Positions 4,750-51,278 of a DNA stretch of 64,000 bases are shown here, one piece after another. The stretch is from Thermococcus bergensis (GTDB lineage Archaea; Methanobacteriota_B; Thermococci; Thermococcales; Thermococcaceae). Below the pieces are notes generated by a model. That model did not search any database, had not been told where the DNA came from, and was given only the letters and a program-made list of their open reading frames with translations. The translations under genes and the position numbers were made by a program. The DNA lies in assembly GCF_020386975.1 (NCBI RefSeq), contig NZ_JABFNK010000005.1, forward strand, positions 806,001 to 870,000. The letters are read 5' to 3'. Numbering within the stretch: the first letter of the stretch is position 1; each line of letters opens with the position of its first letter.

Positions 4750-4881
4750 TTTTACCACCACGTAAGTTTATCTCCTCTTAACTAGAACACACCAAAGCAT
4801 TTAAGTGTTAGACCCGGACGCTGGAAAAGTTAAACATAAAACCGTCACGTAGCACTAATCCTTCTCTTTTTAACACCTTTT

Positions 4882-4905
4882 GTTTAAAACGCAACCCTTT
4901 ATAAA
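4882..4905 (+). promoter_or_regulatory. hypA promoter: TATA box with a SurR-type half site
   Basis: A TATA box (TTTATAAA, 4898-4905) stands 36 bases before the hypA start. Just upstream, 4882-4890 reads GTTTAAAAC, a match to GTTn3AAC, the core site of the redox regulator SurR, which is encoded in this window. SurR is known to activate hydrogenase genes, so the site makes sense in front of a hydrogenase maturation operon. The extended GTTn3AACn5GTT form is absent, and a short AT-rich palindrome can occur by chance, so regulation is only inferred. Confidence 0.5.
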
Positions 4906-4940
4906 CAGTACCTGTTTAGACTTTTTAGAGGGGATAGGAT

Positions 4941-5357
4941 ATGCACGAATGGGCACTCGCTGATGGGATAGTTAGAACTGCAATTGAATTCGCGAGGCAG
5001 CACGGAAAAGAAAAAGTACTGGGCATGAGGATCATCCTTGGAGAACTGCAGGATGTCAATCCGGAAGTACTCGAGTTTGCCATCAACGAAATAAAGAAGG
5101 GAACCATTGCAGAGGACGCAGAGGTTGAGTTCGTTATTGAGGAGGCAGAATTCAGGTGCAGAAACTGCGGAAACGAATGGAAGCTTAAAGAAGTCAAGGA
5201 CGGCTTTGACGAGAGAATAAGGGAAGACATTCATTTCATTCCTGAAGTAGTCCATGCTTTCCTCGCCTGCCCGAAATGCGGTAGCAGGGACTTCGAGGTC
5301 ACAAAAGGCAGGGGAGTTTACCTCGCGGCAATAAAGGTAGAGGGTGATGAGGAGTGA
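4941..5357 (+). CDS. hypA: Hydrogenase nickel metallochaperone HypA
   Basis: 138 residues. It begins MHEW, whose N-terminal amine and His2 form the nickel site. A zinc domain has two CxxC pairs (CRNCG near residue 75 and CPKCG near residue 114). The insertion between the pairs is typical of archaeal HypA. It delivers nickel to the large subunit of [NiFe] hydrogenases. The start is supported by GAGGGGAT upstream. It overlaps the next gene by four bases (GTGA), so hypA and the ATPase are translationally coupled, in line with the HypA-HypB complex studied in T. kodakarensis. Confidence 0.95.
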   Translation: MHEWALADGIVRTAIEFARQHGKEKVLGMRIILGELQDVNPEVLEFAINEIKKGTIAEDAEVEFVIEEAEFRCRNCGNEWKLKEVKDGFDERIREDIHFIPEVVHAFLACPKCGSRDFEVTKGRGVYLAAIKVEGDEE

Positions 5358-6079
5358 TCGACCCAAGGATAAAAGCCGTTGAGGCAAGGCTTGAGAACGT
5401 AAAGAGAATCATTCCCGTAGTGAGCGGCAAGGGAGGCGTGGGAAAATCAATGGTTTCCACAACTCTAGCATTAGTCCTTGCAAAGAAAGGGTATAAAGTT
5501 GGCCTTCTTGACCTTGACTTCCACGGGGCAAGTGACCACGTAATTCTCGGCTTTGAGCCCAAGGAGTTTCCGGAGGAAGACAAGGGTGTTGTTCCTCCAG
5601 AAGTGCACGGAATCAAGTTCATGAGCATAGTGTATTACTCTGAGGATAAGCCGACCCCGCTGAGAGGAATGGAGATAAGCGATGCCCTGATAGAGCTCTT
5701 GGCCATAACAAGATGGGATGAGCTTGATTTCCTCATAATTGACATGCCTCCGGGAATGGGAGACCAGTTCCTGGATGTGCTCAGGTTCCTCAAGAGGGGT
5801 GAGTTCCTAGTTGTTGCAACTCCTTCGAAGCTTGCTGTCAACGTTGTTATGAAGCTTCTTGAGCTTCTGAAGGAACAGAACCTGAAGGTAATCGGCATAG
5901 TGGAGAACATGAAGCTCGATGAAGAAAAGGAGATCGAAAACCTCGCCAAAGAGTTCGGTGTGCCCTACCTTGCCGGCGTCCCGCTCTACAGAGACCTCGA
6001 TGAAAAGATAGGCAACGTGGAAGAGCTGTTGAAGACAGAATTTGCCAGGAAGATCGAAGAAGTTGCAGATTCCCTTTAA
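5354..6079 (+). CDS. hypB: MinD/Mrp-type ATPase HypB (nickel insertion enhancer)
   Basis: 241-residue P-loop ATPase with the deviant Walker A motif GKGGVGKS near residues 26-33 and the MinD-type DxDxxG (DLDFHG) and DMPPG motifs. In Thermococcales this ATPase replaces the SIMIBI GTPase HypB of bacteria and forms a complex with HypA that raises its nickel affinity. The GTG start at 5354 overlaps the hypA stop. No CxxC scaffold motif is present, which separates it from Mrp/ApbC iron-sulfur carriers. Gene order hypA-ATPase-hycI strengthens the assignment. Confidence 0.9.
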   Translation: MIDPRIKAVEARLENVKRIIPVVSGKGGVGKSMVSTTLALVLAKKGYKVGLLDLDFHGASDHVILGFEPKEFPEEDKGVVPPEVHGIKFMSIVYYSEDKPTPLRGMEISDALIELLAITRWDELDFLIIDMPPGMGDQFLDVLRFLKRGEFLVVATPSKLAVNVVMKLLELLKEQNLKVIGIVENMKLDEEKEIENLAKEFGVPYLAGVPLYRDLDEKIGNVEELLKTEFARKIEEVADSL

Positions 6080-6100
6080 TCTCAATTTTTGGTGATAGCT

Positions 6101-6568
6101 ATGGAGGAGTTTCTTGAAGGGGCAACGAAGGTTGTTGTGTGTGGCATCGGGAACGACATCAGGGGAGACGATGCCTTTGGAGTTTACGTCGTGGAGAAGC
6201 TGAAGGAAAAGGTCTCAAACCCCAAGGTAGTGTTTCTGAACTGCGGCGAAATGCCCGAGAGCTATGTTGGGAAGATAATAAGGGAAAATCCCTCTCATGT
6301 GGTTTTTATAGACGCGGTGCATTTTGAAGGAAAGCCGGGCGAGATAGTTTTAGCCGATCCAGAGGGAACACTTGGGGAGGCTTTCTCAACCCACAAAATG
6401 CCCCTGAAGCTTCTGGTTAGCTACCTAAAGGAGCAGACAAATGCGAAGTTCATTCTGATTGGTGCCCAACCAAAACAGACCGGACTTTTTGTGGAGATGA
6501 GCGACGAGCTGAGAGAAAGCGCGGATAAGCTGGTGGAACTGTTGGCAGAGCTTTTAAAGGGCATTTAA
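6101..6568 (+). CDS. hycI: Hydrogenase maturation endopeptidase HycI family
   Basis: 155 residues with the family signature GIGNDIRGDDAFG near the N-terminus, where aspartates bind the nickel of the precursor subunit, and FIDAVHF further on. It clips the C-terminal tail of a [NiFe]-hydrogenase large subunit after metal insertion. The ATG at 6101 follows GGTGAT at 6091-6096. It lies 21 bases after the HypB-type gene and ends the operon. Which hydrogenase it processes cannot be told here, because no hydrogenase structural gene lies in the window. Confidence 0.9.
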   Translation: MEEFLEGATKVVVCGIGNDIRGDDAFGVYVVEKLKEKVSNPKVVFLNCGEMPESYVGKIIRENPSHVVFIDAVHFEGKPGEIVLADPEGTLGEAFSTHKMPLKLLVSYLKEQTNAKFILIGAQPKQTGLFVEMSDELRESADKLVELLAELLKGI

Positions 6569-6817
6569 AGTTTTTAACGTTCAAAATCGTGAAAGATGCT
6601 TTAATGAAATGTAAATTGCTCAACTTTTGAGGAAGGTCTTGAATATTTTCTGGGTATTTCTTTACTACTTGATTTGACCATAGCAGCATTTTTCATTATT
6701 TTGTAATGTCTTTGCATATAGCACAATTTTTACAAGAAAACGTTGAAAATTAAAAACCTCCCCCTTTATATACTTTAACATGCAATGACATATTAGGATA
6801 TTTGGAGGTAATGAATT
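6569..6817. promoter_or_regulatory. Promoter region of the secreted lectin-like gene
   Basis: AT-rich spacer. A TATA-like stretch TTTATATA lies at about 6766-6773 after a C-rich run, and GGAGGT at 6804-6809 is the ribosome site of the downstream gene. I see no coding sequence or RNA structure in the rest. Confidence 0.5.
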
Positions 6818-8299
6818 ATGAAAGAGAAAGTCTTATTTTCTGTTTTTTTGAGTTTGTTGATGCTATTGGCGATTAGTCCCAGAGTTTCAGTAGAAGCCGC
6901 CACCCATACGGAAGCCCTACTATATGCAGGTCAACATACGGTTGTGGGCGAAGTAGTTGTGTGGAACGACGGAGAAAATCTTTATGTGAAATACACCATA
7001 ACCGAATCAGGATGGTATCTGGTTGAGACACACTTGGAAGTAGCGACTAATTTGAGTGATATTCCACAAACCAGAAACGGCAATCCAATACCTGGGCACT
7101 TCACTTACAAGAATGAGTCCCACACTTTCGGAACGACGGAGTACACGTACGTGATTCCACTCGAAAACTGGGAAAAGGGGGATGAGCTTTACATCGCGGC
7201 CCATGCAGAGGTCGTGAAGGTTGATGAGGTCACCACTGGCAACCTCGTGTACAATGGCGATTTCGAGATCCCTGACATCCCTTATGGAGAATGGAACATC
7301 TTTGACAGCAGTGTTGTTGGATGGGGTATCGAGTGGTACGATGGCAGTGAAACATACAATGGGTACACCAGACCGGAAACTCCTTTGCTGGAAATTCATG
7401 ACCATGCCCTAGGCTTTGATGCCTACAGTGGAGACCAGTATGCAGAGCTGGATACAGACTGGGACGGACCTCACGGGAGCCTAAATGGCGAGCCGGCCTC
7501 GGTCAAGATATACTAGAACCTTGAGGTTGACTACGGAGGGTACGACGAGTACCTGCCGCCGTACACCTGCGACTTAAGCTACGCGTGGAGACCGAGGACT
7601 TCAGACAGTCAGATGGAGGTTTACTGGGGAGGATCTCTCATTGCCAGCCATGCGGATTCAGGATATGAATGGCATCATGAAGAAATCTCAGGTTTGACCC
7701 TTGATGGGATCACCGAGCTAGCATTTATCGAAACTGGAACTCCTGATTCATTAGGAATGTTCCTGGACGCAGTTAACGTCACCTGCAACGGGTATGCGGT
7801 CGTTCAGGAAGAGACAGCCTGGGCCGATGGTACTAGATTCGTGGAAAAAGGAAACTGGGGGATGTATTTCACTTACACCGTTCAGGGCTGGGAGCTGATC
7901 GATACCATTGAAGTCCCCTCAACCACTCCGGAGCCAACTTCTACTAACGTGGACCTCGAGGCAGGGCATCTCTACAAGATTGAGGCAGTCGGTACGTATT
8001 TCTTTAGACATGAGGGATCTCCAAGTGGATACCTAGCAGATGCTGAATGGGCTTATAGAAACGACGCTTACGGAACCGGATGGACAAAAGGCGACGATTA
8101 TCCAAACTCCAACGGACTGGACCTGTGCATAAACGACGACAGCACAAACATCGACTGGGGACCACTGAACGAAGATACTCACACGTACAGCATAACCTAC
8201 ATTCCGACGGCAACCGGGCCAATCAGCTTCTTCATCCGCGATAGCTACTACGGAGACAACTCCGGAAGCCTGATGGTCTACATCTATGAGTGGAAATGA
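6818..8299 (+). pseudogene. Secreted multidomain lectin-like protein split by one in-frame TAG
   Basis: One reading frame of about 493 codons is interrupted only by TAG at 7514-7516; the frame continues without shift to 8299. The product starts with a signal peptide (residues 1-28). Next come a domain with GQHTVVGEVVVWNDGENLYV, a DUF642-like beta-sandwich (NGDFE, GIEWY, QYAELD), and a piece with ETAWADGTRF. The C-terminal domain resembles PA-IL-type carbohydrate binding (DAEW, GWTKGDDY, DSYYGDNSGSL). In DUF642-like domains the residue at the TAG is usually Gln, so CAG to TAG is the simplest origin. The first part could still be secreted as a 232-residue protein. An extracellular sugar-binding role is inferred from domain type only. 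Confidence 0.75.
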
Positions 8300-8521
8300 A
8301 TAAGAGTCAAAAATTTTGTGGACTCCTTTTATTTTTCTTTCCTATTTCTGCAGGGTTAAAAACAACGTTGGGAAAACTCTTCTGAAAGGTACAAGGAAAG
8401 TTAAAGGGCTCAGAAACGGGTCCAGATCATCACATCTCAGTATTATGAAATTCTCTTCATTGCATTAATTTCTAGGTTGCTTGGTTTTAAGCTTTTTAAT
8501 CAACAGCATAAAGAGGTCGCA
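8300..8521. other. Spacer without recognised content
   Basis: About 220 bases of AT-rich sequence between two genes that converge. A T-rich stretch near 8325-8342 could end transcription of the secreted-protein gene. Nothing else could be recognised. Confidence 0.3.
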
Positions 8522-9261
8522 CTAGAAGAGCTGGATAACCTGTTCCCTGGAAAGTTTTATTTTAAAATGGCGGGGCATGAATTCGGGAAGGACAGATTTA
8601 GGCACCAGTATGATTTCCTCTAAGCCTAGAGGAGTCACCTGAGAAACAAACTCCACAACTTGATCATGCAGACTGAAAAGCCAAGCAACAGCATGTTCTG
8701 GAATTGCCTCTTCATTTAAAAGTGAAATTACGCTGATCTTAAGGGAATTCAGAGGCTCTTTCTCAAAACTTGCCAGTGATGCCCTTATGATCCTCTGCAT
8801 CATCTGATAGCTGAACTCATGGTAAAGACCCTCCAAAGTGGCCACAAGTCCCACAACTAATGTTCCCTTAGGAATTCTATCTCCCAATTCATGATATAAA
8901 TTTATCAATTTTGCAATTCCTGTTTTGTCACTCCAGTTTGGTATTTGGAGTATATATGGCTTTTCAGAGGAGAGCTCATACTTGGATCCAAAAAGGTCAA
9001 TTACGTAAACTTTCCCTTCTTCTCCAGCCTTGCTGAGATTAAGTCCCGCACATTTCAGTCTTAACTCGAGCTTTGATATAGGGAGTGTGGCGTTAAGGAT
9101 AACACAAATTGCACCCCTTTTCAGTAGCTGCTTAACTATCTTCAACCCAGCATCCAGCCTACTGACCGCCTGTCGTACGCTATTAGCAGGTTCCCTCTTT
9201 CAATAATCCCACCACCTAGAGCTACGTCAATATCATTTAGTCCAGTCTTCACAACTTTCAT
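8522..9261 (-). pseudogene. Frameshifted KaiC/RecA-like protein without Walker A
   Basis: The first 39 codons from the ATG at 9261 (GAGGAG upstream) read MKVVKTGLNDIDVALGGGI and on to GWMLG, then hit TGA. The remaining 207 codons are open in the frame reached by adding one base at about 9145-9152 (CTGGGTTGAAG). The N-terminal GLNDIDVALGGGI is the usual opening of KaiC/RadA-like domains, but where the P-loop GxxGxGKT should be the sequence reads AYDRRSVGWML, so ATP binding was probably already lost. It may be an inactive regulatory relative that has since decayed, or an intact gene with a sequencing error. No operon partner is visible. Confidence 0.65.
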
Positions 9262-9493
9262 AATCCATCTCCTCAAGATAAAATTTGCTAACATAAGGTT
9301 AAAAAAATATTATCATTGTCATACAGCTAGTGCAGAAGAAATTGTGAAGAGAAAGCGGCAAGTTGCGGTAATCTAAGGATTTCCTCACGGTTGTTTCTTG
9401 ACTCTTTATTTTAGAGTATTTTAGAGTAAAAGCTCTTCTTTAAGGCTCAAGGTTCTACGAAAGAAAGGAAATATGGTTCACCGTTTCAGAAGA
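9262..9493. other. Spacer between KaiC-like gene and tRNA-Arg
   Basis: AT-rich spacer of about 230 bases. It holds the promoter side of the KaiC-like gene (GAGGAG at 9269-9275). I see no further gene. Confidence 0.3.
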
Positions 9494-9570
<77 letters not shown>

Positions 9571-9737
9571 TCGGAGTTTATTGGGCTCGATTGCATTTAT
9601 AAATCTTACGGTTTTTGAAAATGAGTTTTGTAATACATACATAGCAAACCCCCATAAACCCGTCTATCAAACTGGTTTCTCCACGTCTCAAAATCAGAGC
9701 TTTTCAAAAAAGGGAAGTAGAAAAGCTATCCTAAATT

Positions 9738-10913
9738 CTATACTGCTATGTTGTCCTTGAGGTATTTGTATGCTATTAAAGAATACAGTGCAGTCCCTTT
9801 CCAGAGTACACTTTCATCTATGTCAAATTTTGGATGGTGGTGGGGATATACTATGCCCTTCTCTTCATTTCTAATTCCCAGGAAGATAAAGACTCCCGGG
9901 GCTTTTTGTAAGTAGAAGGCGAAATCCTCAGCTCCCATAGTGGGTTCAGCCTCTACAACCGGCCCTAAGGTTTGAGCAATTTTCATAGCGAATTCAGCAA
10001 GTTCCGGGTCGTTTACTGTTGGTGGATAAGGAGTTCTAAATAGCTCAACAGTCCCTTCACAGTCCCAAGCTTCTGAATAATGTTTCACGATTTTCTCTAT
10101 TCTGGCCATTATTTTGTTTCTTAAGTCCATATCAAAGGTTCTGAGGGTGCCCTTTATCTCTACTACATCCGGAATAACATTATACCCATGACTTGCAGTG
10201 ATAACGGGGGTAGTTATGACCGCTGGCAAGAATGGATTAACATACCTTGAAACTATTTTTTGGAGTGCGTTGTAAATATCCGCCGCAGGATTAGTAGGAT
10301 CATTTGCAAGATGCGGAGATGCCGCATGGCCACCTTTTCCTTTAATCCTTATTATGTATCCGTCGGAAGAAGCCATGATTGGCCCTTTCCTTGTGGCAAT
10401 TACCCCCGATGGCAATTGGGCCCATACGTGGATTCCAAAAATGGCATCGACGTCATCCAGGTGTCCTTCTTCTACTATCTTCTTGGCACCTGCTCCGCCC
10501 TCTTCTCCGGGCTGGAAGATTAGTTTCACAGTCCCCTCGAGCTGGTCTTTAATTTCAGCCAGTATTTTTGCCGCTCCAAGAAGCATTGCAGTGTGAGCAT
10601 CGTGACCGCAAGCGTGCATTTTTCCCGGAACTTTGGACTTGTATGGAACGTCATTCTCCTCCTGAATTGGCAGGGCATCCATATCCGCCCTTAAGGCAAC
10701 CGTTTTACCTTCTTTGCTCCCTCTCAAAATTCCAATAACACCAGTACCAGCAGTTCTGACGACTTCGTAACCAAGCTTTTTGAGCTCCTCCTCCACAATC
10801 TGAGAAGTCCTGACTTCTTCAAACCTGACTTCGGGATGCATGTGAAAATCCCTTCTCTTCTCAACAACACAAGACTCCAATTGTTTGGCAAGTTCTATAA
10901 TCTTGTCTTCCAT
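9738..10913 (-). CDS. M20-family amidohydrolase / aminoacylase-carboxypeptidase
   Basis: 391-residue zinc amidohydrolase of the M20D group that includes archaeal CpsA, hippurate hydrolase and AbgA/B. Metal-binding positions are visible: HACGHDAH near residues 100-107, the GEEGG glutamates near 138, GIHVW near 164, and the C-terminal HHHPKF histidine. It would release amino acids from N-acyl or peptide substrates in the cytoplasm. It lies 50 bases downstream of an AbgT-type transporter gene on the same strand, which suggests uptake and cleavage of an acyl- or aroyl-amino acid. The transporter is now interrupted by an IS, which may also affect expression of this gene. Confidence 0.9.
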   Translation of the reverse strand: MEDKIIELAKQLESCVVEKRRDFHMHPEVRFEEVRTSQIVEEELKKLGYEVVRTAGTGVIGILRGSKEGKTVALRADMDALPIQEENDVPYKSKVPGKMHACGHDAHTAMLLGAAKILAEIKDQLEGTVKLIFQPGEEGGAGAKKIVEEGHLDDVDAIFGIHVWAQLPSGVIATRKGPIMASSDGYIIRIKGKGGHAASPHLANDPTNPAADIYNALQKIVSRYVNPFLPAVITTPVITASHGYNVIPDVVEIKGTLRTFDMDLRNKIMARIEKIVKHYSEAWDCEGTVELFRTPYPPTVNDPELAEFAMKIAQTLGPVVEAEPTMGAEDFAFYLQKAPGVFIFLGIRNEEKGIVYPHHHPKFDIDESVLWKGTALYSLIAYKYLKDNIAV

Positions 10914-11890
10914 ACCCCCATCCTCCTAAGAGGTTTATAAACAAAGACAAAAAAGTAGAAAAATCAAAGTCTAATTGGTGCTCCTGGTCCCAATGGGAGC
11001 CCTAAAAGGTACCAGACTATTGCCATCACTATCCACGTTACTAGGAACACCATGGAGTACAAGACAGTTCTTGAAATTATTGTACCAATGCCTACATCCT
11101 TCTTGTATACGCTTGCATAGCCGAGTATAACCGGGAAGTATGACATTAGTGGAGTAACTGCGTTAGTGCTTGAGTCACCAATCCTGTAGAGCAGCTGGGC
11201 CCACTCAGGGCTGTAGCCTAGGTAGTACATCATGGGTACAATAACTGGGGCCAGGAAAGCCCACTTGCTGGAACCGCTTGTAATAAATAAGTTAATGAAT
11301 GTGGAGACGAATATTATTGCGATAAAGAGGCCAATTCCAGTGAATCCAGCGGACTTAAGGAAGTTCGCGAGCTTTATTGCAAGGATTGATGCCATGTTTG
11401 TGTGTGTAAAGGTGTAAATGAAGTTTGCTATGGGGAATACTATCACAATGTATGAAGCCATGGTCTTCATGCTTTCTACCATATAGTTGAGCATGTCGGA
11501 GGACTTCTTAACTGTTCCAACGCTTTTTCCATAGACATATCCTCCAATTACGAAAAACAGGAACAGTATTGGAACTATGCCCCTAAGGAATGTGGAAGGC
11601 ACGATTGTATTCTTAACAGGGTCCCTTAGTGGGCCGTTTGGAATTATGGTCAATAGGAACATTAGGAGGAAGTATCCTCCTGCAGCCAAAATTGCTTTCT
11701 TTAGTGCTTTCATATCTTTATCTGTAAGTGGGGTTAAGTATTCGGGTGGAACCTGAGCGTGCTCGTACTCCTCATCCCATCTGGCAAATCTTGGCATTGC
11801 GTATTTAACAGTAAATATAGTTCCCACTGCAGTAAGTACGAAAGTCGAGGCTACCATGAAATAGTAGTTTGCGGTTGGATATACATTATA

Positions 11891-12822
11891 ACCCTAGTTC
11901 CCATTAGATCGTTAGAGTTATAAGCACTTAAGTCTTTTGGTTGATTGGTGGTTGTATTGAGCTTTCAAAGGAAAATCCTGATCATAAAATCCGAAATCTA
12001 TCCGATAATCAGCAAACACTACCCGAAAAACACTCACAGGGAAATAATCAGCCTCTACGACCTGATAACCTTCGCAATACTAGCACACTTGCACTTTAAC
12101 GGAGTTTACAAGCACGCTTACAGAGTCCTAATCGAAGAAATGAAGCTGTTCCCCAAAATCAGGTACAACAAACTAACAGAACGCTTGAACAGGCACGAAA
12201 AACTCCTGCTCCTAGCGCAGGAAGAATTATTCAAAAAACACGCCAGAGAATACGTTAGAATACTGGACTCAAAGCCCATTCAGACCAAGGAGTTGGCCAG
12301 AAAAAACAGGAAGGATAAGGAGGGTTCTTCAGAAGTCATCTCTGAAAAGCCCGCAGTTGGGTTTGTTCCCTCTAAAAAAAGTTTTACTATGGGTACAAGC
12401 TGACCTGTTACTCTGATGGGAACCTGTTGGCTTTGCTGTCCGTTGATCCGGCAAACAAGCATGATGTGAGTGTTGTCAGGGAAAAGTTCTGGGTGATTGT
12501 TGAGGAGTTTTCTGGCTGTTTTCTGTTTTTGGATAAGGGTTACGTTAGTAGAGAACTTCAGGAGGAATTCCTGAAGTTTGGCGTTGTTTACACGCCAGTA
12601 AAGCGGGGGAATCAGATTAGCAATCTGGAGGAGAAGAAGTTTTACAAGTACTTGTCTGACTTTCGCAGGAGGATTGAGACTTTGTTTTCGAAGTTTTCTG
12701 AGTTTCTTCTGAGGCCGAGCAGGAGTGTTAGTTTGAGGGGGTTAGCTGTCAGGATTTTAGGGGCGATTCTGGCCGTGAATCTGGACAGATTATACAACTT
12801 CACAGGTGGTGGGAACTAGGGT
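11891..12822 (+). mobile_element. IS982-type insertion sequence
   Basis: 932-bp element bounded by inverted repeats ACCCTAGTTCCCA (left, from 11891) and its complement ending at 12822. It is flanked by the 9-bp direct repeat TACATTATA at 11882-11890 and 12823-12831, a target-site duplication. Ends starting ACCC, length and transposase type fit the IS982 family, which is known in Pyrococcus. It is inserted in an abgT-type gene in the opposite orientation. The perfect target duplicates suggest a fairly recent insertion. Confidence 0.92.
11945..12819 (+). CDS. IS982-type transposase, two frames joined by a -1 shift at A7
   Basis: The first frame (from about 11945, start uncertain) holds the N-terminal half, including LDSKP with the first catalytic aspartate, and stops at 12403. 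The second frame carries the rest (YYGYKLTCYSDGNLLALLS, then FLDKGYVS with the second aspartate, and RRRIETLFSKF with the glutamate) to 12819. The frames join at the run of seven A at 12374-12380: reading one base back gives KKKFYYGYKL, which fits the family. This could be slippage that lets a small share of full-length DDE transposase be made, an inactivating loss of one A, or a read error. Confidence 0.8.
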
Positions 12823-13428
12823 TACATTATAGTTCGGGTCTACTATTTTTACAGCCGCATCTGTGATTCCCGCAAGCAGCACGTCAGTTCCTGCGATAAA
12901 TATATTTGCAGTAAAACCTGCTGATGCTGCAACATAACCCAATATCAATCCAAAAATGGGGTCTTTTCTTCTAGAGTAGAAGAGTGCTGCCGAAAGTGGC
13001 GGAATTATTACCAAAGACGCATCTGAGGCCAAGTTTCCACAAATTCCCACAATAAATATTGCTGGGATTAGATATTTCTCTGGAACTCGGGTTAGAGTCT
13101 TCATGATTGCTGGGATAAATCCTGATCTTTCTGCAAATCCTGCTGCCATCATCATTACCAGTACCAGTCCGAGTGGTGGGAATTTTGCGAAGTTTGAGAC
13201 CATATTTGTTAGAATCCAGGCAAGACCCTCTCTGTTTAATAGGCTTACTACCTTAATTTCTTCCCCTTTTGCTGGATCTACTGCAGACACTCCTCCAAAA
13301 ATTCCGGAGAGTATAATCACTAAGAACCAGAGACCCAAGAAGATCCAAAACATGTGGGGCAGTTTGTTGCCCACTCTTTCTATCCAGTTAACAAACTTCA
13401 TTAACAATCCTTCGTTTGCTTGGGCCAT

Positions 13429-13730
13429 TCTACCACCTCTTTCTTATTTTAGTTAGTGCCAACTCAAGATGTCCATTTTTATGCACTGGCACAGATATGT
13501 TCATCAAAAGTGAATTTTAAAATCGTTTCTAAAACCTTTAGTTTCCAAAAAGAAGTTCCGTATATCCACTATTGCTGAGATACCTCCGTGAATGTTCAAA
13601 ATTGGTGAAAAATGGGCTCTTAGTATTCCAAAGGCTTTGTCATCAGGGGCAGTCGTAAGATATCAAAGGCTTAGATCACCAATGCTAACAACTTCAGAAG
13701 CCTCGAAATTTTATAAAAAGAGAAAAGGGT
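13429..13730. other. Spacer with a possible degraded coding stretch
   Basis: 302 bases. The AbgT promoter must lie at its left side. On the minus strand about 13510-13700 is open apart from one stop and reads like real protein (EASEVVSIGDLSL, stop, LTTAPDDKAFGILRAHF and on), without a start codon. I do not recognise it. A short plus-strand frame in the same place has no support. Confidence 0.25.
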
Positions 13731-15026
13731 TTATGGGTAAATCCTTGAGGGTGTTCTTGGGAACAGAGTTGCCCATCTGATGTGGTCTAGCTTCAGTACC
13801 CAAGCAACGAGCCTTTCTAACCCAAGTCCAAAACCGCTGTGTGGGACACTTCCATACTTTCTAAGGTCGAGATACCACTCGTAGTTCTTGGGATCCATGC
13901 CCTCTTCAATTATTCTCTGAACAAGCTTGTCGTAGTCGTCTTCTCTCTGGCTTCCACCGATGATTTCACCGTATCCCTCTGGGGCCAGCATGTCAGCAGC
14001 CAGGACTTTTCTCGGGTCTTCGGGGTCTTCTTTCATGTAGAAGGCCTTAATGTGCTTGGGGTAGCCGTAGACAAAGAATGGCCTGTCAAATTCATCTGTT
14101 AGAACTCTTTCCTCGTCAGCACCCATGTCCTCTCCCCACTCTATCTTGACTCCTTTGCTCTGGAGGATGTCTATGGCCTCATCATAGCTTATCCTTGGGA
14201 AGGGTGGCTCTGCGTTTTTGAGTGTTGTGAGGTCTTTTCTGAACCTCTCAACCTCACTTCTTCTGAGCTCGAGAGTGCGCTGCACCATATAACTTACAAG
14301 CTCCTCCTCGACTTTCATTATGTCCCACAGATCCATCCAAGCTGCCTCAAGCTCAAGGTGCCAGTACTCGGTGAGGTGTCTCCTTGTCCTGCTCTTCTCA
14401 GCCCTGAAGCTTGGAGTTAAGCTCCAAACCTTTTCCAGTCCAAATATTGCCGCCTCAAGGTAAAGCTGGGCTGACTGGCTGAGGTAGGCTTCTCTATCAA
14501 AGTACTTCAGCTTGAAGAGAGTTGAGCCACCTTCAACTGCGCCGGTGACCAAAATTGGTGGGAATACCTCATACCATCCATCCTGTAGGAGCCATTCCCT
14601 CGCTGCCTGTATCAAGGTCGCTTTGACCTTCATGATGTCCGCTACTTTGGGTGAACGGAGGTGCAAATGCCTCACATCTAAGAGGAATTCCTCGCTTGCG
14701 TCTTTTGTTATTGGGAAGAAGTCAACATTCTGGATGATTTCAATCTTGTCCGCCTGGACTTCAACTCCTGTTGGAGCTCTTGAGTCAACTTTAACGGTTC
14801 CTTCAATTATCACGCTTGATTCTATTCCAACCTGCTTTGCTTTGGTATAAGCATCTTCGCTGAGCTCTTTTGTAAAGACCGTTTGTACTATGCCACTTGA
14901 GTCTCTAAGGACTATAAAGACTTTACTTCCAACCTCTCTTTTTCTATAAACCCATCCGGCAAGTTTTACTCTTTCCCCTTCCATTTTTGGCTTTACATCC
15001 GCACAATAAACCTTCTCAATCATCAT
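13731..15026 (-). CDS. asnS: Asparaginyl-tRNA synthetase
   Basis: 431-residue class IIb synthetase: an N-terminal OB fold for the anticodon (VKLAGWVYRKREVGSKVFIVLRD is split by no insertion) and a catalytic domain with motif 2 around FRAEKSRTRRHLTEYW and motif 3 GLGLERLVAWV. The ending LFPRTPSRIYP is typical of archaeal AsnRS. It charges tRNA-Asn. The start at 15026 is preceded by GGGAGGTG. AspRS is the main alternative, but the HLTEYWHLE signature favours Asn. Confidence 0.93.
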   Translation of the reverse strand: MMIEKVYCADVKPKMEGERVKLAGWVYRKREVGSKVFIVLRDSSGIVQTVFTKELSEDAYTKAKQVGIESSVIIEGTVKVDSRAPTGVEVQADKIEIIQNVDFFPITKDASEEFLLDVRHLHLRSPKVADIMKVKATLIQAAREWLLQDGWYEVFPPILVTGAVEGGSTLFKLKYFDREAYLSQSAQLYLEAAIFGLEKVWSLTPSFRAEKSRTRRHLTEYWHLELEAAWMDLWDIMKVEEELVSYMVQRTLELRRSEVERFRKDLTTLKNAEPPFPRISYDEAIDILQSKGVKIEWGEDMGADEERVLTDEFDRPFFVYGYPKHIKAFYMKEDPEDPRKVLAADMLAPEGYGEIIGGSQREDDYDKLVQRIIEEGMDPKNYEWYLDLRKYGSVPHSGFGLGLERLVAWVLKLDHIRWATLFPRTPSRIYP

Positions 15027-42378: not shown

Positions 42379-42552
42379 GTGGGAGTAATCACCATCTCCG
42401 TTGATGATGAGGTCGAAAAGAAATTTAGAGAACTCGTGGCGAAAAAATACGGGAAAATCCGAGGAGCTTTGGGAGTAGCTGTGACTGAAGCTATGAAGCT
42501 CTGGATTAAAAAAGTTGAGAGCGAGGAAAATGAAGCGGACGGTAACCGTTAA
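42379..42552 (+). CDS. Small ribbon-helix-helix-like protein preceding tnpB
   Basis: About 57 residues with the pattern ITISVDDEVEKKFRELVAKK, then GALGVAVTEAMKLWIKK, typical of short archaeal antitoxin/RHH-like proteins. Starts at GTG 42379 or GTG 42370; neither is decisive. It overlaps tnpB by 23 bases, so they are translated together. It may regulate the element. An orphan VapB-type antitoxin is the alternative, but no toxin gene is adjacent. Confidence 0.65.
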   Translation: MGVITISVDDEVEKKFRELVAKKYGKIRGALGVAVTEAMKLWIKKVESEENEADGNR

Positions 42553-43840
42553 GCTCCAGCCCTCAAAAGCCCAAGAGAAAACCCTCAAAGAGTTAGCCCT
42601 AATCAGCTCCAAAGTCTGGAATAGAGTAAACTACCTCCGCAGGCAAGAATTCTTTGAGGGAAAACCAATAGACTTCAACAAAACCGAGAAAATAGCTTAT
42701 GAAGAGTTTAAATCCGAAATCGGTTCCGCAACAGTTCAGCAAATTTGCAGGAAAAATGCTGAAGCCTGGCGTTCCTTCTTCTCCCTCATCAGGAATAAAC
42801 GGAACGGAGAACTCCCCAACTGGCTTAAACCAAAACCGCCGAACTACTTGAAAGATAATGAAAAAAGGAAAGCACTAATAGTCCTGAGGAATGACCAATA
42901 CGGGATTGAGGGGAATAAACTAATCCTCAAAGGCCTTGGAAAGTTCAAAAAGCTGGAAGTCCAGTTCAAGGGGAGAATACACTTGAAGGGAAAGCAAGGG
43001 AGATTGGAGATAACCTTCGACCCGGTAAAGCGGAAATGGTATGCTCACATCAGCATCACCGTAGAGAAGAAACTTCGGGGTGGGGAATGGGTAGAAGTTC
43101 CAAGACAGCCGTTAGGCAACCTCTCTGCAGGAATAGACCTCGGAGTGAACAACCTAATGGCCGTTTACGTTGAAAACGGGGAGAGTTTCTTAGTCAATGG
43201 TAGGCCGTTAAAATCAATAGCCTTCTACTGGCAGAAGAGGATTGCTGAGTATCAGTCCAAACTCAACAGGTCTGGGGCTAAGAAGAGTAGAAAACTCTCA
43301 AGAATGCATAAGAAGGCGAGGCTACAAGCAGGGCATTACATTAATACTGCCGTTAGGCAGACTGTTGAGAAACTTTATCACCTCGGAGTCTCCAGAATTG
43401 TGGTAGGCTATCCAAAAGGGATAGCGAGGACCTCTGATAAAGGCAGAAAGCAGAATTATCTCCTCTCCCACGTGTGGCGGTTCAATACAGTAATTCAAAG
43501 ACTCAAGGAAGTTGCTGAAGAGTATGGTATTCAAGTTTTAGTTGTCAATGAGGCTTTCACTTCTAAGACCTGCCCTGTCTGCGGGAAGCCCCATGAGGGG
43601 GCAAGGTTTGTTCGTGGTTTATTTAAGTGTCCCGGGACGGGGCTTATCTTTAACGCCGACTTGGTTGGAGCTTTCAATATCTTAAAGAAGGTTGCCAAAA
43701 CCATAACCCCGAACTTGGGCGGTTTGTATGCCCAAGGGAAGGGTAACGGGGGCGAGACCGTCCCCGAGGGGCTGAAAGCCCGCTTTAGGTTGGGCTTTAA
43801 TGAAGCCCCTCAAACCTCCCCTCCATTGGCGAGGGGTTAA
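42530..43840 (+). CDS. tnpB: IS605-family TnpB nuclease with incomplete zinc finger
   Basis: 436 residues. RuvC residues are in place: D203 (GIDLGVNN), E341 (VVNEAFTSKTC) and D377 (FNADLVGA). The zinc ribbon has C348, C351 and C367, but position 370, normally the fourth cysteine, is Thr (KCPGTG). TnpB proteins are RNA-guided nucleases that use an RNA from the 3' part of the element. Loss of a zinc ligand may weaken the protein. ATG at 42530 follows GAGGA. No tnpA transposase is present, so the element depends on one elsewhere. Confidence 0.92.
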   Translation: MKRTVTVKLQPSKAQEKTLKELALISSKVWNRVNYLRRQEFFEGKPIDFNKTEKIAYEEFKSEIGSATVQQICRKNAEAWRSFFSLIRNKRNGELPNWLKPKPPNYLKDNEKRKALIVLRNDQYGIEGNKLILKGLGKFKKLEVQFKGRIHLKGKQGRLEITFDPVKRKWYAHISITVEKKLRGGEWVEVPRQPLGNLSAGIDLGVNNLMAVYVENGESFLVNGRPLKSIAFYWQKRIAEYQSKLNRSGAKKSRKLSRMHKKARLQAGHYINTAVRQTVEKLYHLGVSRIVVGYPKGIARTSDKGRKQNYLLSHVWRFNTVIQRLKEVAEEYGIQVLVVNEAFTSKTCPVCGKPHEGARFVRGLFKCPGTGLIFNADLVGAFNILKKVAKTITPNLGGLYAQGKGNGGETVPEGLKARFRLGFNEAPQTSPPLARG

Positions 43841-44627: not shown

Positions 44628-44764
44628 GTAATCACCTTAGATTGTTGGGGTTTGATTCTTTAAAAAAGTTAAGACCTACCGTCTTTGTTTAATCCACCTC
44701 TAGAAAAATCTAAATATTTCCAATGATAAAATATAATTATGAGGGTTGTTGGGGTGTATCAGCG

Positions 44765-46306
44765 ATGAAAATAACCGTTTTCGATGGTGCCGATACTATT
44801 GGTGGAACAAAGATTCACGTTGAAGAAGGTGAAAATGGTCTCTTCCTGGACTTTGGAATGAATTTTGCAAAGTATTCTCAATATTATGAAGAATTCATAA
44901 GCGAAAGAACAGCTAGGGGAATTTATGACCTCTGGCGTCTTGGGATGATACCAAAGCTCAACATCTATCGAAAAGATCTAATTCCAGAAGATCTTTTCCG
45001 TGAGGTTGGAAGATTCCCAAGGCCCAAGGTTGATGCAATCCTCATAAGTCACGCTCACCTAGACCACGTTGGAAACGTGGCCCTTCTTGACAAAAACATT
45101 CCTATAGTGGGCTCTCCAACGACAATATCGATAATTAAGGCTTTGAATGACACGGCAGCTGGTGGGAGCCATTTTGGCATGGAGTCCCCATATTACAAAG
45201 TTAGAGTGAGGAAGGATGAGGAAGGTTATGTTTTGGAGGCAGACAGGAAGTCCCATTACTTCTCGAGGGATGTCATCCTCACTGAAGACTCACAAGACCT
45301 CTCGGATTTCCTCTTTTACAGGCCTGGACAGGAATCTCCAAGAGCTAAGAAAATTTTGCCCGGTGATGTGAAAACCGTCAATGAGGAAGATTTAGGATTT
45401 GAAATTAAGCCATTTAATGTGGATCACTCAATTTACGGTGCAACGGCTTACATAATTGAAGGGGAGATAAGCTTGGCCTATACTGGGGACTTTCGATTAC
45501 ATGGCAAAAATGGCGACAAAACCAGAAAGTTCATCAAAGAAGCAAAAAACGTGAGCATTTTGATAACTGAGGGCACAAGAGTTGGCAGGGAGGAGCATGA
45601 AAATGTTTCTGAAGAGGAGGTTTATAAGAATGCTCTAAAGATAGCTGAAGAGGCCAAGGGTCTTGTTGTGGCTGATTTTTCAGCGAGAAATTTCGAACGA
45701 CTTGAGAACTTTAAGGAAATCGCAGAAAAAACAGGACGAGAGCTTGTGATAACCGCAAAAGATGCGTACTTTCTCCATGCGCTAAAACTTGTTGATGGTG
45801 TTGATAGACTTGCAGGTCTCAGGATCTATGGAAACTTTAAAGCCACACGCCAAAAGTGGGAGGAGATAGTGGTTTGGGGCAATTATGCTGAGCAGTATGC
45901 TTCTCCATTCGAAATCAGAAAAGGACAAGAAAACTACATTCTCTGCTTTTCATTCTACGATATGCCCCATCTATTGGATGTGATGCCCAATGGAGGGGTT
46001 TACATCTATTCATCAAGTGAAGCCTTTACCGAGGAACAGACGTTTAGTTTCCTTCGCCTCTGGAACTGGCTTCAGTATTTTGGCTTTGAAGTCCATGGAT
46101 TCAGGGTTGATGCTGAAGGAAAGCCAATATTTGAAAGGGGGCTCCACGCTTCAGGACACGTTTCTAGGGAAGAATTAGAAAAAGTAATTGATGAGATTGA
46201 TCCCGATTACATCATCCCCGTCCACACGGAAAGCCGGGAGTGGTTTAAAGAGAACTGGGAAGAAAAAACTGTTATTTTAAAAAATGGTGGTAGTTGGGAG
46301 GTTTAA
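44765..46306 (+). CDS. Metallo-beta-lactamase-fold nuclease-like protein, first gene of the McrBC-like operon
   Basis: 513 residues. The metal motif HAHLDH is at residues 96-101; further ligands are likely in NVDHSIYG, YTGDFRLHG and the C-terminal IIPVHTESREWF. The order fits RNase J/CPSF-like (beta-CASP-type) hydrolases with an unusual insertion (about 150-200). It should act on RNA or DNA, but a role is not proven. The ATG at 44765 follows GGGGTG. It is the first of five closely packed genes that end with an McrB-like motor, so a defence role is plausible. Confidence 0.85.
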   Translation: MKITVFDGADTIGGTKIHVEEGENGLFLDFGMNFAKYSQYYEEFISERTARGIYDLWRLGMIPKLNIYRKDLIPEDLFREVGRFPRPKVDAILISHAHLDHVGNVALLDKNIPIVGSPTTISIIKALNDTAAGGSHFGMESPYYKVRVRKDEEGYVLEADRKSHYFSRDVILTEDSQDLSDFLFYRPGQESPRAKKILPGDVKTVNEEDLGFEIKPFNVDHSIYGATAYIIEGEISLAYTGDFRLHGKNGDKTRKFIKEAKNVSILITEGTRVGREEHENVSEEEVYKNALKIAEEAKGLVVADFSARNFERLENFKEIAEKTGRELVITAKDAYFLHALKLVDGVDRLAGLRIYGNFKATRQKWEEIVVWGNYAEQYASPFEIRKGQENYILCFSFYDMPHLLDVMPNGGVYIYSSSEAFTEEQTFSFLRLWNWLQYFGFEVHGFRVDAEGKPIFERGLHASGHVSREELEKVIDEIDPDYIIPVHTESREWFKENWEEKTVILKNGGSWEV

Positions 46307-46309
46307 CAA

Positions 46310-46651
46310 ATGTCAGTTAAAATAGCTGTTTATGGAACTTTGAGAAAGGGAAAGCCTCTACATGGATATCTGGAAGATGCAATTTTCCTTGGGGAAGACT
46401 GGATCAAGGGCTATGAGCTCTACGTTGATGGATTGCCTTATGCAGTTAAAGGCTCTGGAAAGTTAAAAGTTGAGATTTGGGAGGTTGATGAGAAAACCTT
46501 CGAGCTACTCAACAACATAGAGGTCGGTGCTGGATATATGCCCGTTGAAGTCAACACAGAGTTCGGCGAGGCCATTCTATGGGAGTGGAAGTATGAACCA
46601 AGTGGGAAAAGAATAGAAAGTGGAGATTTTGATGATGCTGGAATATGGTAG
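46310..46651 (+). CDS. Gamma-glutamylcyclotransferase-fold (AIG2-like) protein
   Basis: 113 residues with the fold signature VYGTLRKGKPLHGYL at the N-terminus and WEVDEKTFELLNNIE in the middle. Family members cyclise gamma-glutamyl amines, but many archaeal ones are of unknown use. It starts three bases after the MBL gene and overlaps the next gene by seven bases. Position in this operon suggests it takes part in the same system, perhaps as a modifying or immunity-type component; this is speculation from context. Confidence 0.8.
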   Translation: MSVKIAVYGTLRKGKPLHGYLEDAIFLGEDWIKGYELYVDGLPYAVKGSGKLKVEIWEVDEKTFELLNNIEVGAGYMPVEVNTEFGEAILWEWKYEPSGKRIESGDFDDAGIW

Positions 46652-47133
46652 ACATGCGAAAAGTGCTCCGGAGAGTGTTTTGTATGGGGGCTCCTGAAAG
46701 AGATCCAAATCGTGTTTTTGAATACATAAAAGATACTGTGCTTCATCCAGAGAAACATCCAGAACACTGGGAGGACTGGCTAAGAGCGGGAAGAAGGAGA
46801 TTTTTACTCCTTAACATCATCTACTACATTCAGCATGTTATGGGAAGGGAAGAGGGAGTTACTAGGGAGGATCTTGAGGGATTTTTGGGAGAGCTGTACT
46901 ATGTTGATAGAGAGATGTTTTCCAACATAATTAAGCCATGGAAATCCTTGGATGATACTATTAAGGAGCTTCTGGAACAGGGCCTAATCTTGCAGACACC
47001 AAAGGGTGCCTATCTCGTGAATGGGGAGAAAATACGAAATGAGGAACATTTGATCTACTGGAGAAGTGTGAAGAGGATATTTGATGAAGTCAATACACAA
47101 ATTGGAGGGGATATACAAAATGGAAGAAAATAA
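46645..47133 (+). CDS. Unrecognised small protein of the McrBC-like operon
   Basis: 162 residues, no family recognised. It is helical with an aromatic, basic middle (HWEDWLRAGRRRFLLLNIIYY) and a C-terminal part (KELLEQGLILQTPKGAYLV) that could be a winged helix. It overlaps the gene before by seven bases and the nuclease gene after by 14 bases. The start may be the ATG at 46645 or at 46654. It could be an adaptor or regulator of the nuclease complex. Confidence 0.7.
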   Translation: MVDMRKVLRRVFCMGAPERDPNRVFEYIKDTVLHPEKHPEHWEDWLRAGRRRFLLLNIIYYIQHVMGREEGVTREDLEGFLGELYYVDREMFSNIIKPWKSLDDTIKELLEQGLILQTPKGAYLVNGEKIRNEEHLIYWRSVKRIFDEVNTQIGGDIQNGRK

Positions 47134-48817
47134 GAATGAAGTGCTGCTTGACAGAGAAGAAAAATATCGTCTACAAGCCATATTAAAAAATAAAAAAGAG
47201 AAGGAATGCATGATAGAAGATAATGGAACACTGTATCTCTTTGAATGGCAGGAATACAGGATTATTGGAGAAAAGGCGTTCACATTGAGGATAGGGAATG
47301 AGAACCTTGATGCAGAGAAGATTGATGATAATACATACATAGCAACATTTCAGTTCAAGAACTATATTGGTAAGACTAATATCGAGATTCTAGAAGGTAT
47401 CAAACCAATCTCTCTTAAATTTGAAAACTTTGAAGTACTCTCAGAGAAAGTTGAAAAAATTTATAAAGACAGAGAAGACATTGTAGGAAAGCATAGAAGG
47501 CTATATAAAGCGTTGGTCGAATATATAACGGAGAAATCAATTTCTCTCCCTTTCTCGATCAGTGCCCCTACGGCATTTGAAGTTGAAGAATCCGAAGAGC
47601 CTATAAGTGAGCTCTTTGCATACCACTTTCTCATAAACAATAAAGGGAGAATAATTTCGGCCTATGAAGAAATCACAAGACGTCCTCACAGAAAACTTTT
47701 TGAGAGGGAGGACTGGCTGGACTTCTGGGAAGTAAGTGAAGTTGGTGAGGATACTCTAATTTCAATCATTACTCATCCTAAATACTTGGTAAAAGCAGAA
47801 GCTTCTTCTATTGCAATTGCAAGATACCTAAACAACCATGTTCCTACCAGAGTTATTCAGAAAGTCAAGTACGAAAGCTTTGACACTCATGAGAATAGAT
47901 TTGCCAAGCGCTTTCTCAATGATCTGATAACATGGAATGAGAGAGTTATTAATTCACTTCTAACGTCGTCATCTTTAACAGCGGAACAAAGAGAGAACAT
48001 AATTTCCAAATTAAGCTTTGTCCTTGGTGAGCTAGAATACTATGCCACACGTGATATTTTTGATGATGTGGGCGAAATGGTGATTTTTCCATACACCTCT
48101 CAAGTGCTCCTTAAACGTGAAGGGTACAGAGATTTGCTCCAGCTCTGGCAAGAATTCAGAAGTTATTCACCATTTTTTGGTGAAATGCAAAAAGCCATAG
48201 ATAACAAGGATATTGCCAAGCTCTATGAGTACTGGTGCTTTTTCAAGCTTGTAGAGGAACTTGAAAGTATACTTGGATGGAAGGGTTTGAGATTAGTAAT
48301 TGAACCGACAGGAGAACTTCACGAGAGCGATAGCAAGGAAGAAGTCTATGCTGAATTCAACAATGGTTGGAGGATTTATTATAACAAAAAGTTAACTCCT
48401 AAAAAGTGGAGTTACTCTGTCTCGCTTAGACCTGATTTTTCATTATTTGCCAGGGATCCATCAGAGCAGAAGATGAGCCTTCTAGGAGTTTTCGACGCAA
48501 AATTCAAGTTCGATGTTGTCGATATTAATAAATTCGCAGATGAAGACAAAGGAATGGAAAGAGAGCCCACTCTTCAGAGATGGGCAAAGCTTGAAGACAT
48601 CTACAAGATGCACACATATAAAGACGCTCTAAATGCCAAGTTTGCTGTAGTGTTATATCCGGGAAACAAAAGCGTGTTTTTTGGGACTAACAAAAGATGT
48701 ATTGGAGATTTAGAAAGATGTGAAGGGAAGTTTGATTTAGATAGATTATTGGACAAGAATGGTGTTAAACTTGAGGGAATCGGGTATTTGTCTATGATAC
48801 CGGAGGTGAAAGGATGA
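47120..48817 (+). CDS. McrC-like PD-(D/E)xK nuclease (DUF2357/DUF524 type)
   Basis: 565 residues. An N-terminal DUF2357-like region is followed by a nuclease core with D439 (RPDFSLF) and D459-A-K461 (GVFDAKF), the PD-(D/E)xK pattern. The same arrangement is found in proteins that replace McrC beside McrB-type motors, where the nuclease cuts DNA or RNA when driven by the motor. The ATG at 47120 follows GGAGGGGAT. Its end overlaps the McrB-like gene by four bases (ATGA), so nuclease and motor are coupled. Confidence 0.85.
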   Translation: MEENKNEVLLDREEKYRLQAILKNKKEKECMIEDNGTLYLFEWQEYRIIGEKAFTLRIGNENLDAEKIDDNTYIATFQFKNYIGKTNIEILEGIKPISLKFENFEVLSEKVEKIYKDREDIVGKHRRLYKALVEYITEKSISLPFSISAPTAFEVEESEEPISELFAYHFLINNKGRIISAYEEITRRPHRKLFEREDWLDFWEVSEVGEDTLISIITHPKYLVKAEASSIAIARYLNNHVPTRVIQKVKYESFDTHENRFAKRFLNDLITWNERVINSLLTSSSLTAEQRENIISKLSFVLGELEYYATRDIFDDVGEMVIFPYTSQVLLKREGYRDLLQLWQEFRSYSPFFGEMQKAIDNKDIAKLYEYWCFFKLVEELESILGWKGLRLVIEPTGELHESDSKEEVYAEFNNGWRIYYNKKLTPKKWSYSVSLRPDFSLFARDPSEQKMSLLGVFDAKFKFDVVDINKFADEDKGMEREPTLQRWAKLEDIYKMHTYKDALNAKFAVVLYPGNKSVFFGTNKRCIGDLERCEGKFDLDRLLDKNGVKLEGIGYLSMIPEVKG

Positions 48818-51278
48818 TAAACCAAAATAAACTTCGAGAGTTAATTAGAGAGTATTGTCGTACAGAGCTTGAAGTGGCAAAAAATGAATGGGCCGATAAA
48901 AACATTAAGGAATTTAGAGAGACTCTTGATAAAATTAAGAGAACTGGTAACTATGAACTTCTGAAAAAGGCTATTAGTTATCTGCATTCCGGGAGAAATG
49001 CTATTAGATTTCACATTAAGGATACATCCGAACTAAAACAGCTCTGGGAGAATTTCCTGAAAGAAATCGTCGAAACTGACCCAGAAGAAATTTTAAAGGA
49101 TATCGATGAACGCTTTGAGAAGTGGGAAGAAATAAAAGGCGTTGGGAAGGGGCTTGTATCTGAAGCTTTAGCTTTTTATTATCCAACTCACTTTAGCCCG
49201 TGGAATAATACTGTTGAATGGTACTTCCAGGAACTTGGGTGGAGAAAGCCAATGAAATATTCAGAAGTTCTTTCCCGCCTTAAAGAGCTAAAGAGCATTT
49301 TTGAAGAAGAATGTGATCATCAGGACATCAACTATGTTATCATAGACCATTTTGGCTGGTGGCTTCAGGTTAAAGTACAAACAAAAAATCTGTCAGAGAA
49401 GCTGGCATCGCTACTAAAACAACTTAAAGCGACCCATAACGATGAGTGGGTCTTAAAAGAGAAAGAATTTAGGGGATATCTTCAGAGAATAAAGGAATTG
49501 GCAAAGAAAGGAGACTCAATTACAGAAGAAGAGTTTAAAGAACTTCTGAATACTGTCAATAAAGTTCATGAGTTGTTGGGTGTGGAGGTATTATGGTTGT
49601 GGGGAAGTGCAAAAGCTTCAGGTGAGGTGGCACGTGACATTTTGTCTAGGCCAGATTTTCAGGAACTAATGCAGGTTGTGGAAGAAATCGATGACATAAA
49701 AGAAGTTGAGATGAATAGCGAGATTCTACAGCTAATTCTCAAAGTAATGGAAGCTCCCCACACCAAAGTATCTACACTAAGCTCATGGATTTTTGTTTTT
49801 AATCCAAAGGTATTCTTTCCCATTCACAGTCATATAATGAGCGGAGAAATTATTGAGAGATTAGAACTGAATAAGTTCTGGGACGTTCAAAAATACTCCA
49901 AAAAGAAACTTAAAAAAGTTACCGAGGAATACCTAAGGTTCCTTAGTGCTTTAAATATTGCTGTCGAGGAAGCTAGTGTTGATGACATGAGTGAGGTAGT
50001 ATTTTATTTTGCAAAGAAAGGACAAAGTGAATCAGTTACACTAAAACAGTATTTCGCTTCAAAAGGCTATCTCTACCCAGAGCATCTAGTTTCCCAGTTC
50101 TACACCGCCCTCAAGACCAAGGGCTTCGTTATCCTTTCAGGCCTCACGGGGACTGGCAAAACGAAAATTGTCCAGGAACTGGCAGAGCTTCTCGACCCTG
50201 AAAAGAAAAATTTCCTCTTCCTCCCGGTTCGCCCGGATTGGAGGGACTCAAAGCAGCTGCTTGGGTACTACAACCCATTAACCGGCGAATATCACAAGAC
50301 CAAGCTACTTGAGTTCATTCTAAAAGCCAAGGAAGACTACGAGAAGAACGGGAGGGGTGCCATGCCTACTTCGTCCTGCTTGACGAGATGAACCTTGCCC
50401 ACGTGGAGTACTATTTCGCCGACTTCCTAAGTGTTCTTGAGAGTGGGAGAGACGAAAAAGGCTTCACTAAGGAGGGAATACCCCTACACGACAGTGATGA
50501 GGTTGAAAAGTTCCTGGAAATCCCCAAAGAGCTTAAACTTCCCCCGAACCTCTACATCGTTGGAACTGTCAACATGGATGAGACAACATACGCCTTCAGC
50601 CCAAAAGTCCTCGACAGGGCTTTCACGATAGAGTTTCACGAGGTGGAGCTTGAGAAGTATCCTCCAGAAGAAAATGCGGATGATGGATCGGCCTATGGGC
50701 TTGTGGTGCCGTTAAGAGAGGCCATTCTGGAGGATCTTCGTGGCAAAGATGACCAGTTCCTTGCCCGCTCGAAAGATGAAATAAACGAGGATGTCAAAAA
50801 ACTGAAGGGTACTGAGTACTGGCAAATCCTCATTGAATTAAACAAAGCTCTCGAGCCTTACGACCTCCACTTTGGATATAGAGTAGTCGACGAAATAGCT
50901 TTGTTCTTCAAAAATGCCAAAGAAAGCCAAGAAAGAGAAATAGTCAAATTTGAGAATGACGATGAAATCTTTGACTTGGCACTTCTCATGAAAGTCCTTC
51001 CAAAGTTCCACGGGAACAGGAAGAAGCTTGAAAAGCCATTGAAGGAGGTTTTAAAGCTTTGTATGAACGAACAGGTCACCATAAAGCTCGATAGAAATGA
51101 AAACAAAATCGAGATTAAATTACCAGACGAGATTGATAAGCTCAGTAGTGATATGATTGTTGCCATACTCAAAGAGTGGGAAACTTACAAGGACAACTTC
51201 CGCTTTAAGCACATGGCTAAAAAAGTCCTCCGCATGCTGAGGCAACTCTATGAGATTGGATTCGCAAGCTTTAGTTAA
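48814..51278 (+). pseudogene. McrB-like AAA+ motor with a frameshift between Walker A and Walker B
   Basis: The first frame (48814-50391) holds a long N-terminal sensor region and Walker A GLTGTGKT at residues 443-450. The second frame, one base back, starts within HAYFVLLDEMNLAHVEYYF (Walker B) and holds the McrB-type NMDE and KVLDRAF (arginine finger) parts up to 51278. The break is near GGAGGGGTGCC (about 50353-50363); one more G would restore about 821 residues. The N-terminal region has two similar motifs (FYYPTHFSPWN and VFNPKVFFPIH), suggesting a duplicated recognition fold. If the shift is real, the motor is dead; if an error, the system is complete. Confidence 0.85.

Follow-up and report, generated by a model that had tools for sequence, protein, structure and literature searches.

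The window, i.e., the whole stretch of 64,000 nucleotides analyzed here, spans positions 806001–870000 of contig C5 in a Thermococcaceae genome (G000). Open reading frames and Pfam domains place five plus-strand genes in it in the order MBL, GGACT, P3, McrC and McrB, where MBL stands for a metallo-β-lactamase-fold nuclease and P3 for a small protein with no Pfam match (Table 1). All five had been listed in this order and orientation in the first-pass annotation of this DNA. The operon is separated from a minus-strand methyltransferase gene by the divergent intergenic region. The tnpB element reported beside the operon is likewise present, with the TnpB gene at 42515–43840; relatives of this TnpB are also found near three other clusters of our survey (L032, L049 and L059).

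Table 1. Features of the operon and its flanks in window coordinates, with the evidence for each assignment.
Feature	Position	Strand	Basis
Divergent intergenic region, presumed promoter	44628..44764	.	Inference from gene layout
MBL-fold β-CASP nuclease, RNase-J-like, 513 aa	44765..46306	+	Pfam, NCBIfam, alignment
GGACT/γ-glutamylcyclotransferase-like protein, 113 aa, optional member	46310..46651	+	PF06094, 2.8e-14
P3, about 149 aa, winged-helix-like	46684..47133	+	Start from alignment of relatives; listed ORF begins at 46645
McrC-like nuclease, DUF2357 + PD-(D/E)xK	47120..48817	+	PF09823, 3.2e-34; PF04411 (PDDEXK_7), 4.1e-17
McrB-like GTPase, first part: N-terminal region, Walker A GLTGTGKT	48814..50391	+	PADLOC PDC-M26A, 1.1e-22
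Frameshift region splitting McrB	50345..50390 (near 50370)	+	Frames read
McrB-like GTPase, second part: Walker B LLDEMN, NxD signature VNMDE	50388..51278	+	PDC-M26A, 9.8e-25; open frame begins upstream of 50388

The genes had been described as following one another with gaps of 3 bases or overlaps of 4–14 bases. We found the 3-base gap between MBL and GGACT, the 14-base overlap between P3 and McrC (McrC start at 47120) and the 4-base overlap between McrC and McrB, but the overlap of GGACT with P3 probably does not exist. The ATG at 46684 is preceded by a GGAG and lies at the residue where the short P3 relatives start, and we therefore place the P3 start there. Hence, P3 is probably a protein of 149 residues that follows GGACT after a gap of 32 bases, rather than the 162-residue overlapping protein originally proposed.

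The last two genes are, by their sequence features, members of the McrBC family, in agreement with the earlier assignment of an McrB-type motor with a DUF2357/PD-(D/E)xK partner. McrC carries DUF2357 together with an intact PD-(D/E)xK nuclease motif, RPDF...FDAKF, which was also intact in 16 of 16 members checked. McrB matches AAA models and carries both Walker motifs and the N(x)xD signature of McrB-type AAA+ proteins, split in the window over two reading frames, the first holding Walker A and the second holding Walker B and the signature. In another assembly (L009/L053), a 5.4-kb stretch of DNA with 99.2% identity and only one indel encodes an intact McrB of 821 residues in which the motifs are found in one frame. 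The break in the window therefore stems from an error in sequencing, or McrB was lost recently; in the latter case, the frameshifted window allele may be inactive. As the first-pass annotation spoke of a "repaired operon", the frameshift had apparently been seen already. The L009 contig ends upstream of P3, where what is left (L009:1-87) looks like the terminal part of a TnpB element, not MBL-GGACT, and abuts P3 near its start.

Structure predictions had been suggested for the McrB N-terminal region and for P3. For the McrB N terminus, we obtained an all-helical model, but mostly at low confidence. Two hints, the motif GxG...SExL and weak similarity to archaeal Ogg in Foldseek, pointed to a DNA-glycosylase-like (HhH) domain; the model is poor there, sequence searches came back empty, and we do not claim such a domain. 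The N-terminal domain also weakly resembles a domain of the protein encoded upstream of MBL in a DISARM locus described below (HMM E 2.8e-4; hhalign 67%), and a weakly similar domain is shared by a protein of the P3-TPR modules. For P3, the AlphaFold model consists of helices and a short β wing, with pLDDT values of about 75–92 for residues 50–150. Its best Foldseek matches were the winged helices of MarR, DtxR and RPA2, none of them at E ≤ 0.001. P3 thus has a topology like that of a winged helix in the predicted model, but no significant structural match. No P3 was found outside Thermococcaceae in 115 genomes of the phylum, and no relatives of P3, MBL or the McrB N terminus were found in viral contigs.

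In MBL, Pfam identified the domains Lactamase_B_2 (PF12706, 2.3e-9) and RMMBL (PF07521, 3.1e-6). The closest NCBIfam model was the RNase J family TIGR00649 (1.4e-22), with a score of 79.8 bits that is below the 400-bit cut-off. MBL has the HxHxDH motif and the β-CASP motifs expected of β-CASP MBL nucleases, and HxHxDH, TGD, EGTR, SGH and PxHTE were invariant in a 15-row alignment that included proteins from Thermus, Rhodothermus and Methanothermobacter. Among β-CASP enzymes, some nucleases act on RNA and others on DNA. Because the catalytic motifs are kept even in plasmid relatives of about 35% identity, MBL likely has nuclease activity, on RNA or DNA. Distant full-length relatives with 31–34% identity are found on plasmids of Thermus, Rhodothermus and Methanothermobacter (L073–L076), where most stand alone. 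Avs2 and restriction genes are found close to the one in Rhodothermus, and an N-6 methylase close to the one in Methanothermobacter.

To follow the gene set across the order, we searched 94 Thermococcales genomes with P3, GGACT, MBL, McrC and PF10117, fetched 40 stretches, called genes with a simple ORF caller, clustered them and mapped the clusters. The exact order MBL-GGACT-P3-McrC-McrB was found nowhere else among the 94 genomes, and we hence reject the five genes as one conserved unit, as which they had been put forward. The recurrent set is MBL, P3 and McrBC. Close MBL relatives occupy 26 loci, and 14 of these have McrC within 15 kb; random placement gave an expected 0.58 and at most 6 in 200,000 simulations. 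This null model leaves out the clustering of defence genes in islands, and the 14 loci therefore show linkage, not function. Stretches of McrB also follow MBL or P3 in three loci, once at a contig end (L051) and twice as remnants (L038 and L049); two of the three have no nearby McrC in the count. Short P3 was found in 12 genomes, with MBL upstream in 10 and McrBC downstream in 10, one of the latter a remnant.

This recurrent linkage bears out the earlier suggestion that the accessory MBL nuclease and the small P3 belong with the motor–nuclease pair. Measured against the refuting condition named beforehand, i.e., the first three genes occurring mostly without the motor and nuclease, the outcome is mixed: they usually occur together, but not always. 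About 10 of the 26 MBL loci have no McrBC (e.g., L032, L033, L034, L036, L045 and L056), and in a further group (L039, L041 and L046–L048) MBL and McrBC are present without short P3. Two of the loci with MBL-P3 and no McrBC (L034 and L056) are flanked by genes of the families f10 and f29, which L050 and L052 carry on the far side of McrBC, from which it follows that the McrBC genes were gained or lost together at these two loci.

GGACT is an optional member, present in 13 of the 94 genomes and in only two of the 12 genomes with short P3, which also argues against the five genes as one set. It belongs to a larger accessory pool together with a class II glutamine amidotransferase, an ADP-ribosylglycohydrolase, a DUF7662 protein and a long P3, in which P3 is joined to TPR repeats (short versus long P3: hhalign 98%). 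The fullest operon, on the T. barophilus plasmid pTBMP1, reads MBL, DUF7662, amidotransferase, GGACT, ADP-ribosylglycohydrolase, long P3, McrC and McrB, with an HsdR-like gene just upstream. The genome that contains the window has a second module of this kind without McrBC (G000:C5:933601-940100; L032:3608-10590), made up of MBL, a DUF7662 relative, a class II glutamine amidotransferase, GGACT, ADP-ribosylglycohydrolase, P3-TPR and another small gene. Two GGACT copies located directly downstream of McrC-McrB (L064 and L065, in G085:C158 and G074:C1) contain three in-frame TGA codons and are apparently decaying.

McrC partners fall into two families, i.e., DUF2357/PDDEXK_7 proteins, whose gene precedes McrB, and PF10117 proteins, whose gene follows it. 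Wherever the GTPase signature was readable in L032–L071, NxD (VN[MI]DE) went with a DUF2357 McrC and NxxD (MNT[AS]D) with a PF10117 McrC without exception. In a published census of CoCoNuTs, the NxD signature marks a major separate branch of McrB (PMC11090510). MBL and short P3 occur with both McrBC branches, and in both P3 lies between MBL and McrBC. On the MBL tree, the partner class (NxD, NxxD or none) changes 11 times compared with a mean of 11.2 for shuffled labels; strongly supported branches alone require at least four changes for the NxD class and at least three for NxxD. As partner changes are as frequent as with shuffled labels, MBL behaves as a swappable cassette. It also reaches a system other than McrBC: in L043 (G017; 2475-13918), MBL and GGACT, with no P3, precede, on the same strand, DrmA (E=0), DrmB (3.8e-221), a PLD-type gene and a C5 cytosine methylase. 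DISARM loci of this kind number only two among the 94 genomes, with MBL at one of the two, and the MBL-GGACT-DISARM arrangement is therefore a single case.

The free change of partner on the MBL tree is also what speaks for MBL and P3 as independent passengers, which would accumulate in the variable islands where McrBC also lies but have no joint function with it. The loci without McrBC point in the same direction, as do bacterial plasmids on which MBL stands alone among defence or toxin–antitoxin genes. However, in many loci MBL lies on the same strand, tightly spaced and directly upstream of McrBC, and sharing of islands alone would not predict an operon order with P3 between MBL and both McrBC branches; we consider joint passage without joint work rather unlikely. 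A second alternative is that MBL and P3 form a regulatory unit, in which P3 would bind DNA as an autoregulator and MBL, as an RNase, would hold the toxic restriction pair at a low level, so that they would serve control and not execution. The weak likeness of the P3 model to MarR and DtxR winged helices fits this, as do RNase J as the nearest named family of MBL and the position of MBL as the first gene. Against it, MBL joins quite different systems, including DISARM, and short P3 is absent from several MBL-McrBC loci, which makes a control unit improbable in our view.

We compared the operon with known systems. McrBC from E. coli and T. gammatolerans and McrBC1 and McrBC2 from T. kodakarensis have in common with it an McrB-type AAA+ GTPase, a DUF2357/PD-(D/E)xK McrC and the overlap of the pair. 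In contrast to these, the window has NxD instead of NxxD, McrC as the first gene of the pair, a different McrB N terminus and the additional MBL, P3 and GGACT. T. kodakarensis deleted for its McrBC pairs, which may be of the DUF2357 or of the PF10117 kind, is transformed more efficiently by autonomous plasmids, and growth is slower once the pairs are lost (PMC13385129). The pairs hence limit transformation, which speaks for McrBC acting in restriction in Thermococcales, where it may have other roles as well.

CoCoNuTs (PMC11090510) resemble the window operon in the NxD GTPase signature followed by E and in an extra nuclease gene in the operon. They are described there as nearly absent in archaea, and MBL appears in that report only once, in a figure legend. 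CoCoNuTs also have a long coiled coil fused to McrB; for the McrB N terminus of the window operon, the model is all-helical, mostly at low confidence. In CoCoNuTs, the McrC nuclease is often missing or inactive, which is offset by HEPN or another nuclease; in the window operon, by contrast, the McrC nuclease motif is intact, a HEPN ribonuclease is lacking and MBL is present. For the intact motif and the lack of HEPN, we do not regard the operon as a CoCoNuT. Among the PADLOC models of PDC-M26, McrB matches PDC-M26A (7.4e-55 for the intact relative), and no match was found for McrC, MBL, GGACT or P3. With RNase J and other β-CASP nucleases (EF2904, PDB 2az4; DR2417), MBL shares the MBL and β-CASP motifs and RMMBL; it differs in scoring far below the family cut-off and is distinct from the RNase-J-like gene of about 30% identity found in nearly every genome. 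Likeness to DISARM is confined to the one locus with MBL-GGACT upstream of DrmA/DrmB; the window has no DISARM genes, and DrmA had no match in the window's own genome. The first-pass annotation knew of no described system with this gene set. We also found none in the open-access literature, neither for MBL-P3-McrBC nor for MBL or RNase J with McrBC, and such a system may be described elsewhere.

The PYG1 island of P. yayanosii, to which L058 appears to correspond, carries McrBC beside GGACT, amidotransferase, ADP-ribosylglycohydrolase and TPR-P3 in its modules II and III. It has been discussed with regard to temperature and pressure adaptation: growth under high temperature and pressure was affected when the island was removed, and those accessory genes respond to both (PMC5126054). 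This could mean that the accessory genes form a stress or metabolic module and not a defence module, yet the report tests the whole island, MBL is absent among the readable PYG1 genes, and MBL and short P3 are linked to restriction genes, so that we regard a stress function as very unlikely.

We therefore favor, with moderate confidence, a type IV (McrBC) restriction motor–nuclease that is combined with a transferable second nuclease and its winged-helix-like partner. We infer that the operon has a role in defence, and the linkage of MBL to McrBC suggests that MBL acts with the pair in one response. Recognition of DNA that is foreign or modified would fall to the N-terminal part of McrB; stimulation by McrC would then let the McrB hexamer translocate with the use of GTP, and the PD-(D/E)xK domain of McrC would cut the DNA. 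MBL would be a second nuclease attacking the products or transcripts, i.e., 5′ ends of RNA, or DNA ends, and P3 may position or control it. GGACT would be an optional add-on from the larger accessory pool. The MBL(-P3) cassette would have been joined to two McrBC branches, and MBL-GGACT once to DISARM. What speaks against this combination of restriction with a second nuclease is that MBL also occurs without McrBC, that the fold match of P3 is not significant and that McrB is frameshifted in the window.

The usual view of McrBC is that of a machine made of two proteins. Our analysis suggests that MBL and P3 form an add-on that different antiviral restriction systems can reuse. Tentatively, and with more doubt, MBL with P3, and sometimes GGACT, could even be an effector cassette that plugs into archaeal restriction in general, docking on such unrelated machines as NxD McrBC, NxxD McrBC and DISARM and adding a second, possibly RNA-directed attack when the DNA machine fires. 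If this were true, part of archaeal immunity would be modular at the level of add-on effectors, and MBL with its partner might account for additional, so far unexplained roles reported for McrBC in T. kodakarensis (PMC13385129).
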